NCBI GenBank assembly: GCA_016887505.1
Contig: CP069393.1
Location: 1,288,001-1,352,000 of the forward strand
Length of the DNA: 64,000 nucleotides
Source of the DNA: Clostridia bacterium
GTDB lineage: Bacteria > Bacillota > TC1 > UBA5767
Direction of reading: 5' to 3'
Part shown: in pieces, positions 54,005 through 57,603 of the stretch
Position numbering within the stretch: position 1 is the stretch's first letter
How the letters are laid out: each line of letters opens with the position of its first letter
Notes under the pieces: model-generated
Database searches by the model: none
What the model saw: only the letters and a program-made list of their open reading frames with translations
What the model was told of the DNA's origin: nothing
Made by a program: the position numbers and the translations under genes

Positions 54005-54391
54005 CTACTCGGCTACATCTTCAGCCTTTTCTTGCTTGTTCTTTTTCATGGAAAGATCCATCTTATCCATCAAGTCGGGCACTATTTCAAGCAATTTCTC
54101 AAAGGAATGTCCTTTACTTATTGGCAGAATCTGTACATCACCATCTTTAACAACAATCATGGCTGTAGGAGAAATCTTTGCACCCAATCCTCCACCAGTT
54201 CCAGTACCAGCTGCACCAGAGGCATCACTACCATTGCCACCACCGTTGCCCATGCCAAATGAAATGGTCATAGCAGGAATCATGGTTAAGCCCTCCATCT
54301 GAATAGGTTCTCCAATTACAGTTTTTTCCTTAACGAAGTTCTCGAACTTGTCAAACATTGCATCCATGTTTTCTTTGAATTTAAATTCCAT
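54005..54391 (-). CDS. gerW: GerW/YtfJ family sporulation protein
   Basis: This 128-residue protein has the family core KTVIGEPIQMEGLTMIPAMT, a glycine-rich GNGGGNGSDASG region (about 50-70) and SPTAMIVVKDGDVQILPISK. In Bacillus, YtfJ/GerW is a spore protein needed for SleB-dependent germination. Here it implies sporulation capacity. The start at ATG 54391 overlaps the DUF2953 gene by 11 bases and has AGGAGG upstream. It is the last gene of the ECF sigma operon. Confidence 0.93.
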   Translation of the reverse strand: MEFKFKENMDAMFDKFENFVKEKTVIGEPIQMEGLTMIPAMTISFGMGNGGGNGSDASGAAGTGTGGGLGAKISPTAMIVVKDGDVQILPISKGHSFEKLLEIVPDLMDKMDLSMKKNKQEKAEDVAE

Positions 54392-55055
54392 AACTCTTCC
54401 TCCTTGTTCCCAACAACATATTTCTCGACGACTTATGTAGCAACAGCCTTATGGCTATGTACACCATATAGATAATAACAAGCTTTCCCTCCATGTAGAT
54501 TTCACCCTCATACACCTCGCGGTCAAAAGCATATTGGATATTCATGTGATGGAATCCCATTCCCCGCATAGTTTCTATTACTGCACTCATAAGACCTGTA
54601 TAGTATGGATCGTCAAAGCCCACGATTCCATACCCCTCAACGCTTCTCGGTAGCACATGACCTAAAACCTTTCGGATACTAGAAAACAAATATTCTAGTG
54701 CCTCCACGCTGAATACCGTACCCCTATCTTTCCTCTTCTTATTCTTCTCTTTTGTATCCTTTCCTTTCTTATCCTTTCTTTTATCGCTTCCAAACTTGGT
54801 TAAACTCTCTTCATCCACCTTAAACGGAATTCCCAAAATACGAATTAGACCTTCAAAGCCAGAACCATGCCGGTAGATTCCCCTAAGAGCCAGCAGTCCA
54901 AAAAGCCAATGTATGTCCACGGATACGCTTTTTTCTTCTTTGCTCACACCCCGTATCTTATAGCGGAAGGGAATAAAGAGTACAGCCAACAGCACGAGTA
55001 ACAAAGCCCATAATACTACTTGAATTATCTTCATGAATATCTTAAGCATCATCAT
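54381..55055 (-). CDS. DUF2953 membrane protein (YtfI-like)
   Basis: This 224-residue protein has an N-terminal membrane segment (about 6-28) and the DUF2953 core VDIHWLFGLLALRG. A lysine-rich stretch (about 90-110) and FDDPYYTGLMSAVI follow. In Bacillus ytfI sits directly before ytfJ (gerW), as here. The function is unknown but tied to GerW. It starts four bases after the anti-sigma gene. Confidence 0.88.
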   Translation of the reverse strand: MMMLKIFMKIIQVVLWALLLVLLAVLFIPFRYKIRGVSKEEKSVSVDIHWLFGLLALRGIYRHGSGFEGLIRILGIPFKVDEESLTKFGSDKRKDKKGKDTKEKNKKRKDRGTVFSVEALEYLFSSIRKVLGHVLPRSVEGYGIVGFDDPYYTGLMSAVIETMRGMGFHHMNIQYAFDREVYEGEIYMEGKLVIIYMVYIAIRLLLHKSSRNMLLGTRRKSYGI

Positions 55056-55059
55056 GACC

Positions 55060-55482
55060 TTATCCCTTCGCCATCACCCGGCGGTAACTATGTCTAATCA
55101 TAACTCTAGAAGCACTCAAAAAAGATGATCCTACCACTCTTACCGTCTTAGTGGCAACTTTCAATCCAGGTAAATATTCTAAAAATAGAAGTGGACCATT
55201 TATGGCAGTAGCCTGTAGCTTTAGAAAGTCCTTTAGAATAAAACGTTGACCCGTCACTTCCCTTATGGCTACTTTCCCAATTTCATCCAATTCCTGGGGT
55301 ATCGGTGTGTCGCCTGCAGACCAAACTTCTAGATCCAGGTAGAGCGCCCTAATCTCTTCCAACTTCCGCTTGCATTTGGGACAACCCAGTAGATGACTTT
55401 CCAAAGCCAAAGAACTTAATTGATCCAATTCGCCATCCAATAATTCATATAGTGTTTCTTCACTAATGTGACATTCCATCAC
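55060..55482 (-). CDS. Zinc-finger anti-sigma factor (zf-HC2)
   Basis: This 140-residue protein has a zf-HC2/ZAS N-terminus: ISEETLYELLDGELD, then HLLGCPKCKRKLEE, the H-x3-C-x2-C zinc site. It should bind and hold the ECF sigma factor encoded just upstream. No strong membrane segment follows, only the moderately hydrophobic GPLLFLEYLPGLKVATKTV, so it may be cytoplasmic. Its ATG overlaps the sigma gene stop (ATGA), allowing coupled synthesis. The releasing signal is unknown. Confidence 0.9.
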   Translation of the reverse strand: MMECHISEETLYELLDGELDQLSSLALESHLLGCPKCKRKLEEIRALYLDLEVWSAGDTPIPQELDEIGKVAIREVTGQRFILKDFLKLQATAINGPLLFLEYLPGLKVATKTVRVVGSSFLSASRVMIRHSYRRVMAKG

Positions 55483-56012
55483 TCATTTCCTCCACCTTTT
55501 TCTTCACCTATTCTCCGAGCCAGAGCTTTACGACCTTGGTAGAGATATGTTTTGATCGTCCCTTCTGGCTTATCCATAGCCCTTGCTATTTCTTTGTAAC
55601 TTAGCCCCTCAAAGTGCCTGAGAAGAATCGCCACTCTTTGTTCAGGCTTCAATTTATCAATATGGTAGCTCATATTTTCACTTCTTAATCTTGCCAGCAC
55701 CTCTTCTTCAGTATTTTCAGGACTGGCAATCTGGTCCATTAGGCCATATTCTTCATCTTTAGCACTCAAAGAAAGAGTCTTCTTCTTGTCACGTTGGAAA
55801 TTCATGCAGGTATTCAATGCTATCCTTCGAATCCAAGGCTTCAGGTTCCGTTCTAAATCAACGCTCTCCCAGTTGCGAAGCACTTTTACAAATACTTCCT
55901 GTGATAAATCCAAAGCATCCTGCTCGTTACCACAATACCGATAACAGATAACATAGATGTAGCCTTTGTACTCCTGGAATAGTTTTTCAAATTCCTTTCT
56001 TTTTCCTGACAT
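55479..56012 (-). CDS. ECF sigma factor (sigma-70 family)
   Basis: This 177-residue RNA polymerase sigma factor has region 2 (about 10-75, with YICYRYCGNEQDALDLSQEV and PWIRRIALNTCMN) and region 4 (about 120-170, with VAILLRHFEGLSYKEIAR and EGTIKTYLYQGRKALARR). Regions 1 and 3 are missing, as in ECF proteins. GGGTGAAGC precedes ATG 56012. It heads an operon with its anti-sigma factor, DUF2953 and gerW. No promoter was identified confidently upstream. Direct GTGCAAAT copies on the minus strand, 45 bases apart (56025-56032 and 56070-56077), are possible control sites. Confidence 0.93.
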   Translation of the reverse strand: MSGKRKEFEKLFQEYKGYIYVICYRYCGNEQDALDLSQEVFVKVLRNWESVDLERNLKPWIRRIALNTCMNFQRDKKKTLSLSAKDEEYGLMDQIASPENTEEEVLARLRSENMSYHIDKLKPEQRVAILLRHFEGLSYKEIARAMDKPEGTIKTYLYQGRKALARRIGEEKGGGNE

Positions 56013-56187
56013 GCTTCACCCGGCATTTGCACTAAACCTTCCTGTGATTCACTTACTACCCTATACCCAATTTGCACCAAAAAGTTTTGAATACTGTAAA
56101 ATTTCTCATATTATTGGTTTTTCTTAGTTCCAAATGAGATTTAAACCCCTCTATCTTTCTCTCTTAAGAAAATCTCTCATCCACTGT

Positions 56188-57603
56188 CTAGCTTGGCTCT
56201 TCCTCGGTCCTTCCTTGTTCAGTATTGTATCCCACTATCTTAATCAGTCGGATATCTGCATAGGAATAAGCACTCATGGGGCAATCAATTCGGTCCGTTG
56301 TGTTGGAATTAACCAAATAGTCTACAAGCATATCATTTTCATCACGAATCACATCTACAATAATCACCGAGTGAGTCCACTTTCCATCGGTTCCATATTG
56401 AATGACATCCCCAATTTGCCCACTGTAGATATTGTCTCCTACTATGGCAACCAATCCTGGCCCTTCATTATTCATTGCATATTCATAAAACTCATCCACA
56501 CCAGACCAAGAGGATGAACGACCACTATGTCTTTCTTTTTCATCTAGACAATCTCCATACCATTTCCACTGATTGTTAATAGAGCCGGTTATATCCATAG
56601 GGATGCCCCCAGCATACAAGCATTGGCTAATAAAATTGTTACAGTTCCCCCCTAATTCATCGTATGCCTTCCACACTGGATTACGAAGCAGTCCACAACA
56701 GCCCGTCCATTCATAAGCATATTCTACCGCTTTTTCACGATCATATTCATTTTCCCAAACTGGTTCAAGATCAGAAAATTCACTAGTCCCTTCTAGATAC
56801 TGCTCATAGGCAGCAACGTTATTATGAATGCTTTCATTGGCGTCTAGTACTAAAAGTCCAAGCACCTTACTATATCTTTCATCAAGCAGTGCTAAGTTCA
56901 CAATTTTTTCTTTATCAATATCCCAATTAAATTCTTCTTCCGAAACATCCAATGTTTCGGTAGCCTCATCTTTCTTAAATTCGCTGGTAAAACCTTTCTC
57001 TGCTACATAGTAAACATCTTCCTGCTTGGTGTGTATAAGAATCTTCCACTCATCATCCGTTTTTTGAACAAGAAATTCATGTTTTATGCCACTTGCATAA
57101 GTGGTTCTTTCAGGGATAAAGGAATATCTTATTTGGCTATGTTCCAAGAGCACTACACGCAGTAGATTGTTCCCCATTTCGGTAGCCTCAATTATTTCTA
57201 ATATGCATTCATAGTAATTGAGCCTTAGATCTGACTCTTGGCCTTTCCTCACTGCCAACAAATAGGATAGTGCCAATTGATTAATGTATGCGTTTTGGGC
57301 AGAGGCTTCATATTCTAAGTCAAAATAAGAAAGAAGATTCGCCTCTTGATAATCTACGAATGATGAATAGTAGTCTAAGGTGAAATCTCGAATTAGTAAT
57401 TCAACAGCTTTTGGCATACTAATAGTGCCAAGATTGGCAAAAACAATCTTCTGCTGTTCATTATTTGCCCTTAATGCGATTTCATCATTATCCCCATTCT
57501 GAATACTAGTTTCATCGCTCACCTTTAACGTGCAAGAAGTGCACAGACATATGCTCAACCCCAAAAGCGCCAACATCCGATAGATCGCGTTATTTTTTTT
57601 CAC
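56188..57603 (-). CDS. Lipoprotein with amidase_6 domain
   Basis: This 471-residue exported protein has lipobox LCTSC and starts at GTG 57603 after GGAGGTAGA. A helical or beta middle region (about 40-290) of unclear role precedes a putative amidase_6 (NlpC/P60-like) domain (about 305-470). The nucleophile Cys is in GGNCNNFISQCLYAGGIPM and the His in WTHSVIIVD. It may cleave peptidoglycan cross-links or other cell-wall amides. It follows the ECF operon on the same strand after a 176-base gap without features. Confidence 0.9.
   Translation of the reverse strand: MKKNNAIYRMLALLGLSICLCTSCTLKVSDETSIQNGDNDEIALRANNEQQKIVFANLGTISMPKAVELLIRDFTLDYYSSFVDYQEANLLSYFDLEYEASAQNAYINQLALSYLLAVRKGQESDLRLNYYECILEIIEATEMGNNLLRVVLLEHSQIRYSFIPERTTYASGIKHEFLVQKTDDEWKILIHTKQEDVYYVAEKGFTSEFKKDEATETLDVSEEEFNWDIDKEKIVNLALLDERYSKVLGLLVLDANESIHNNVAAYEQYLEGTSEFSDLEPVWENEYDREKAVEYAYEWTGCCGLLRNPVWKAYDELGGNCNNFISQCLYAGGIPMDITGSINNQWKWYGDCLDEKERHSGRSSSWSGVDEFYEYAMNNEGPGLVAIVGDNIYSGQIGDVIQYGTDGKWTHSVIIVDVIRDENDMLVDYLVNSNTTDRIDCPMSAYSYADIRLIKIVGYNTEQGRTEEEPS

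Follow-up and report, generated by a model that had tools for sequence, protein, structure and literature searches.

Putative self-regulating ECF sigma/anti-sigma module linked to a DUF2953-like gene and a gerW-family gene

In sporulating Bacillota, ytfI is presumably a DUF2953-type gene that is paired with gerW (ytfJ). Canonical gerW is reported to be σF-dependent and forespore-specific, and loss of GerW leaves germination unaffected in B. subtilis and B. megaterium; the cited sections of this 2015 study state that the role of GerW remains to be determined (PMC4366231). Two other reports, in the passages cited, merely list YtfJ among sporulation genes (PMC5276810, PMC9705837). A zinc motif is given for ~72% of soluble class I anti-sigma factors in the relevant section of PMC7406223. 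In RsrA, the trigger disulfide forms between Cys11 and either Cys41 or Cys44, most often Cys44, according to the cited part of PMC4960319. RsiW has a CHCC site yet is described in the cited part of PMC5358783 as not being a redox sensor and as staying bound to SigW when oxidised; it is referred to as HHCC in a passage of PMC4960319.

The locus described here brings these two kinds of system together. It lies in a stretch of 64,000 nucleotides (the window), where the ORF listing has four minus-strand genes at 56012-54005 for an ECF sigma factor, a zf-HC2 anti-sigma factor, a DUF2953-like protein and GerW. The features of the locus are as follows.

56088-56061, minus strand: putative autoregulatory ECF promoter, with -35 element AAAACTTTTT at 56088-56079 and -10 element GGGTATAG at 56068-56061
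56012-55479, minus strand: sigma factor ORF, 177 aa
55482-55060, minus strand: anti-sigma factor ORF, 140 aa with GTG start (139-140 aa depending on start)
55395-55372, minus strand: HX3CX2C zinc motif of the anti-sigma factor (H29, C33 and C36; residue numbers assume the ATG start at 55479)
55173-55165, minus strand: Leu-Pro-Gly in the C-terminal tail of the anti-sigma factor, a candidate sensor or partner-binding site
55055-54381, minus strand: ORF for a DUF2953/YtfI-like membrane protein, 224 aa, with an N-terminal membrane segment
54391-54005, minus strand: ORF for GerW2 (YtfJ family), 128 aa
53982-53959, minus strand: intrinsic-terminator-like hairpin 3' of gerW, near chance when taken alone

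A sequence-only reading of the window had described these genes as tightly coupled, and the spacings it gave are exact in the ORF coordinates: a 4-base overlap between the sigma and anti-sigma genes, a 4-base gap between the anti-sigma and DUF2953 genes, and an 11-base overlap between the DUF2953 gene and gerW. Aligned relatives of the anti-sigma factor start with M-x-C or M-C, and the ATG at 55479 may for this reason be its true start, which would reduce the overlap with the sigma gene to 1 base. Both terminator-like hairpins (3 found versus 2.2 expected) and sigma-70-like promoter sites (9 found versus 11.2 expected) occur in the region at near-chance numbers. The nearest gene upstream of the sigma promoter is an Amidase_6 gene at 56188-57603, and G009 has a similar gene in the same place (L077 8070-9500).

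The sigma factor has the σ2 and σ4 domains only, as expected for an ECF (group IV) sigma factor. Its matches to Sigma70_r2 (E 1.6e-16, residues 11-78) and Sigma70_r4_2 (E 1.6e-17, residues 118-164) are over the Pfam cut-offs, it scores 104.1 bits against TIGR02937 (cut-off 42.9), and its nearest solved relative is SigW (PDB 5wuq; E 1.9e-22). The DUF2953-like protein, which has a Kyte-Doolittle maximum of 3.1, matches DUF2953 (PF11167) at E 0.021 and 15.4 bits, under the cut-off of 22, and is named for this family because relatives in the same gene position do match (E <=0.05 in 11 of 18 aligned relatives, best 1.6e-11). The window GerW belongs to the Spore_YtfJ superfamily (E 7.9e-21; 74.6 bits, cut-off 25) and falls below the cut-off of the spore equivalog TIGR02874 (56.6 bits versus 116.3). 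The subfamily of the window copy is referred to here as GerW2.

It is probable, though well short of assured, that the four genes form a self-regulating ECF module in which a cytoplasmic CHCC anti-sigma factor controls a DUF2953-GerW2 output in growing cells. The sigma factor would transcribe its own operon from AAAACTTTTT...GGGTATAG at 56088-56061 as one transcription unit, and the co-transcribed CHCC anti-sigma factor would keep it inactive in the cytoplasm. The sigma factor would then be freed by a signal from inside the cell, for which the likeliest candidates are oxidation of thiols or loss of zinc at the CHCC site, or the binding of a partner to the conserved C-terminal Leu-Pro-Gly tail. 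The output would mainly be more of the membrane protein DUF2953 and of GerW2, which is predicted to be soluble, and the two may act jointly at the membrane, with growing cells and not spores as their place of action. What the sequence shows directly is a conserved gene order, a promoter motif, an anti-sigma factor that has a CHCC site and no membrane segment, and three sporulation families without a match; from these one may infer the single transcript, initiation by the sigma factor, inhibition by the anti-sigma factor, release by an intracellular signal and the partnership of DUF2953 with GerW2.

The linkage of the sigma gene to gerW was followed in a phylum sample of 398 genomes, 349 of which have GerW matches and 345 Spo0A matches. 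The window GerW as query matches 65 of the 398 genomes at E <=1e-16, a set that is thus chosen by likeness to the window GerW, and linked loci came to light when the GerW and the anti-sigma factor of the window served as queries. The 64 GerW2 loci examined comprise 60 regions, L076, L077, L078 and the window; G078 is not among them, its genus being represented also by G295 and G379. An ECF sigma gene lies just upstream in 22 of these 64 loci and is lacking in 39 of the 61 that could be judged, the upstream DNA being too short in the other three (G070, G115 and G007). Complete four-gene operons account for 18 of the 22 linked loci and are spread over 11 families: f1 (G000, the window genome, and G009), f48 (G055, G158), f5 (G345, G385), f124 (G306), f16 (G192, G068, G329, G308), f22 (G029), f134 (G351, G390), f29 (G114), f133 (G347), f62 (G152) and f95 (G193). 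Gene order is constant in the 11 families, and the genes often overlap or nearly touch. Conservation of the neighbourhood in Clostridia had been proposed as a check on the operon, and the linkage passes it: recurrence in 11 families removes one half of the objection that the sequence-only reading had itself foreseen, an absence of conserved linkage combined with a separate promoter for the DUF2953 gene and gerW.

A lack of conserved linkage had been the outcome of a first survey, which has since been overturned; most of the loci in that survey were canonical gerW. It covered 60 GerW loci, made up of the 30 best Pfam matches and 30 from genomes chosen as having no Spo0A or a divergent GerW, and a sigma gene was upstream in 0 of the 60, some of the loci being shorter at contig ends. 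Six loci of the window family were taken as well, and the sigma gene was seen only in G009. The flank used was long enough in principle, since 21 of the 22 linked loci still show the sigma gene at 1.5 kb upstream.

The four damaged linked loci are those of G093, G372, G065 and G260. In G093, an insert of ~1.9 kb (L172 ~778-2702, operon orientation) interrupts the start of the sigma gene, as seen by comparison with its relative G158. The insert carries a 441-aa ORF on the opposite strand, presumably transposase-like. No intact anti-sigma gene was found in G372. In G065 (L182) and G260 (L188), which represent a twelfth family, there are sigma fragments only and no intact anti-sigma gene, and the reading frames of DUF2953 and GerW2 are open, which suggests that the pair outlives its regulator.

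Of the 64 GerW2 loci, 52 have a DUF2953-like protein where one would be expected (profile E <=3e-4, the profile being built from 18 of those 52). G008, which shares its genus with the window genome, keeps the DUF2953-GerW2 pair without the sigma and anti-sigma genes: its 4.6-kb contig has no convincing trace of them (best tblastn E 0.51), and its genome (97% complete) has no sigma match at E <=1e-20 and no anti-sigma match at E <=1e-4. The fusobacterium Ilyobacter polytropus, which is not known to sporulate, has an adjacent DUF2953-like gene (hhalign probability 99.3) and a gerW whose product is 47% identical to the window GerW; this is the one plasmid record with a match among 72,556 searched. 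The pair lies on pILYOP01, a 962-kb replicon (L256 3364-4357), and is followed by an Hsp20 gene. It follows from G008 and I. polytropus that the pair exists without this sigma factor and outside Bacillota, and that the sigma factor is one control option. That sigma control is dispensable, as seen in 39 of the 61 judged loci and in G008, counts against the module as set out above. Compared with solved structures, the DUF2953 and GerW profiles gave a best E no better than 0.17.

The occurrence of the DUF2953-gerW pair alone in G008 and many other genomes would also fit a locus in which the sigma/anti-sigma pair merely happens to precede an independent DUF2953-gerW unit, and weak sigma-70-like sites at 55157-55128 and 54499-54472 could serve such a unit. 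Both sites are at chance level, however, and the recurrence of the same order, with genes often overlapping or nearly touching, in 11 families argues against a fortuitous arrangement, which is accordingly regarded as improbable.

Transcription of the operon by its own sigma factor is favored by a motif shared among the linked loci. The pattern AAC(T/C)(T/A/C)-N13-18-GTAT, which was drawn up only after the sequences had been inspected, is found shortly upstream of the sigma domain in 15 of 20 linked loci, with its start 37-78 bases upstream of that domain, as compared with a mean of 0.89 and a maximum of 4 of 20 in dinucleotide shuffles. Among 12 representatives (two from f16), 9 have the motif versus a shuffle maximum of 2. 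An unsupervised search for word pairs shared upstream of the sigma gene gave a weaker result than the fitted pattern, with pairs in at most 5 of 13 representatives versus 3-4 in 20 shuffles. The five loci of the 20 in which the motif is absent upstream of the sigma gene are those of G093, G029, G114, G193 and G372, and in G093 a matching site is present beyond the insert. This shared motif indicates that the sigma factor most likely transcribes its own operon. The sequence-only reading had proposed promoter mapping around 56025-56077, a range that contains the -10 element and stops just short of the -35 element of the conserved motif at 56088-56061. The -35 element of the operon resembles the TGAAAC type, a feature in common with the SigW-RsiW system. 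In a tree of 58 ECF sigma factors, namely the 20 linked ones that are longer than fragments and 38 others, a single branch separates the 20 operon sigma factors from the rest (SH-aLRT 81, not strong).

The narrower pattern AACTTT-N14/15-GTATA has 4 sites in the window genome, including that of the operon, versus 9 for the reversed pattern, and a single site in G009, that of its own operon, versus 8 for the reversed pattern. When 6 genomes were searched for a regulon with the promoter pattern, the hits in none of them exceeded those of the reversed-pattern control. The presence of the motif at the operon and the small number of pattern sites point to autoregulation without a large regulon at this stringency. 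Two of the other three sites in the window genome are intragenic and the third (C1:1380221-1380246; L242 2-1526) is ~72 bases upstream of a lipoprotein-like gene, a possible second target of the sigma factor that is not above control. A second ECF sigma gene is present in G009 ~9 kb before the operon (L077 516-1094).

The anti-sigma factor matches zf-HC2 (Pfam) at E 4e-7, over the cut-off, as do all 15 aligned members of its type. The alignment represents 15 of the 20 long-sigma loci, having left out G093 and G385 as near copies, G029 and G193 for their unsure starts, and G372, where no intact anti-sigma gene was found. The protein has the features of a ZAS anti-sigma factor, namely a gene adjoining that of an ECF sigma factor and an N-terminal zinc ligand, C3, which together with HX3CX2C (H29, C33 and C36) makes up a CHCC site. 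C3, H29 and C36 are kept in 15 of 15 aligned sequences and C33 in 14 of 15, being replaced by Ser in G009. The highest 19-residue Kyte-Doolittle mean of the window protein is 0.95, with no membrane segment, and the maximum among its linked relatives is at most 1.36. The hydropathy and the CHCC site thus bear out the suggestion, made at first sight of the sequence, of a cytoplasmic anti-sigma factor with a zinc-thiol motif and no clear membrane segment. A CHCC site allows a redox signal, yet RsiW has such a site and is not redox-regulated, so that for the window protein the site alone makes a response to a thiol signal possible and nothing firmer.

The C-terminal tail of the anti-sigma factor is a second candidate for the site of sensing. 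All 15 aligned sequences have P104 and 14 of them have G105, and the profile match of the zinc part to RsiW (PDB 5wuq; E 1.2e-7) is N-terminal only, confident matches stopping before the tail. Single-sequence AlphaFold models of the anti-sigma factor (mean pLDDT 46.1) and of GerW (mean pLDDT 59.5) are too poor to use. It is conceivable, if unlikely, that DUF2953 or GerW2 is itself part of the sensor and binds the tail, so that the condition of the membrane would determine how active the sigma factor is. The invariant proline, the restriction of confident solved-structure matches to the N-terminal zinc part and the joint retention of the four genes across 11 families would agree with such a role. 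On the other hand, DUF2953 and GerW2 occur without the sigma and anti-sigma factors in many sampled loci and in Ilyobacter, so sensing cannot be the only role of the pair.

The sequence-only reading had taken GerW for a germination protein that answers to envelope or redox stress. Several points speak for a spore germination or spore-property protein under such control: Pfam and NCBIfam label the family as a sporulation protein, canonical gerW is forespore-specific in the cited sections of PMC4366231, and the genomes of 20 of the 22 linked loci do have Spo0A matches, so that in these the operon may have a spore role. The window genome (G000; 2.56 Mb, one contig, 99.2% complete) nevertheless has no match to Spo0A, the SpoIVA ATPase or SpoIIIAE, nor do the family members G007 (86% complete), G008 and G009. 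Bacillus subtilis was found as a positive control in each sporulation-marker search, and SpoIIIAE was found in 3 of 3 Spo0A-positive genomes. The failure to find the three markers in any of the four genomes suggests that the window family is probably non-sporulating.

In a FastTree tree of 113 GerW sequences and 137 columns, all 22 sigma-linked copies, the window GerW among them, fall in one half; this GerW2 half has 63 rows (22 linked, 38 other GerW2 and 3 that had been chosen as canonical), and the opposite half holds 46 of the 49 canonical rows (support 92, moderate). Linked rows are scattered within the GerW2 half, which implies repeated loss, or gain, of the sigma pair. Genomes that have no Spo0A match contribute 11 rows to the canonical half, several of these genomes being incomplete, and 10 to the GerW2 half, so the absence of Spo0A does not cleanly track the GerW subfamily. 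Where a linked locus occurs in a Spo0A-positive genome, as it does in 20 cases, that genome always has at least 2 GerW matches, and a second, separate GerW place is found among the matches listed for 8 of them (G055, G158, G306, G029, G152, G372, G193 and G347); each of the four genomes of the window family has one GerW match. This pattern fits loss of the spore GerW along with sporulation and retention of GerW2.

With a GerW that is below the spore model and outside the canonical half of the tree, a host without the three sporulation markers and gerW mutants that germinate normally in two Bacillus species (PMC4366231, cited sections), the germination claim does not hold up. For the window genome the spore reading is largely refuted, and as an account of the operon it is very improbable. 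Since the operon recurs in many Clostridia, including a group for which searches for key sporulation genes gave no match, DUF2953 and GerW2 probably have a job in growing cells. A wider proposal, speculative and on balance doubtful, is that GerW2-DUF2953 is a membrane-associated system which is widespread in growing cells and either predates sporulation or is independent of it. A dedicated ECF sigma factor would have this system as its main target, and the Leu-Pro-Gly tail of the soluble anti-sigma factor would sense the state of the system in a homeostatic loop. If this were true, the spore GerW would have specialised from a protein with a general function in the cell envelope.

The searched literature contained no account of an ECF sigma/anti-sigma-DUF2953-GerW operon. 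The main reclassification of ECF sigma factors, reportedly that of Casas-Pastor in 2021, lay outside that search and may list a sigma group with a GerW neighbour. The main text of PMC10853773 mentions neither GerW nor YtfJ. The presence of GerW2 beside a dedicated and probably inducible sigma factor, in a family where the three sporulation markers gave no match, would make the role of GerW addressable in growing cells, and labelling every YtfJ-family gene as a sporulation gene is unsafe.

Among described systems, ytfI-ytfJ (gerW) shares with the locus a DUF2953-type membrane protein adjoining a YtfJ-family protein. The two differ in that canonical gerW is reported as σF-dependent and forespore-specific (PMC4366231, cited sections), whereas the window copy follows an ECF sigma gene, lies elsewhere in the tree and belongs to a genome in which none of the three sporulation markers gave a match. 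SigW-RsiW of Bacillus subtilis is the best solved match for both the window sigma factor and the zinc domain of the anti-sigma factor, and RsiW likewise has a CHCC site (PMC5358783, cited part). RsiW is freed by intramembrane proteolysis according to the same source, whereas the window anti-sigma factor, at a hydropathy maximum of 0.95, lacks the transmembrane anchor of the RsiW type; the confident match also misses the window tail, and the window operon adds DUF2953 and GerW2. With SigR-RsrA of Streptomyces the locus shares a soluble, cytoplasmic anti-sigma factor with CHCC ligands and an N-terminal Cys. The Cys pair of the main RsrA disulfide (the N-terminal and the last Cys) is kept in 15 of 15 anti-sigma factors of the window type, and C3 and C36 would suffice for an RsrA-like disulfide because RsrA mostly uses Cys11-Cys44. 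The window protein falls below the RsrA model TIGR03988, however (26.8 bits versus a cut-off of 62.5), and its type is set apart from RsrA by the conserved C-terminal Leu-Pro-Gly and by the company its gene keeps.
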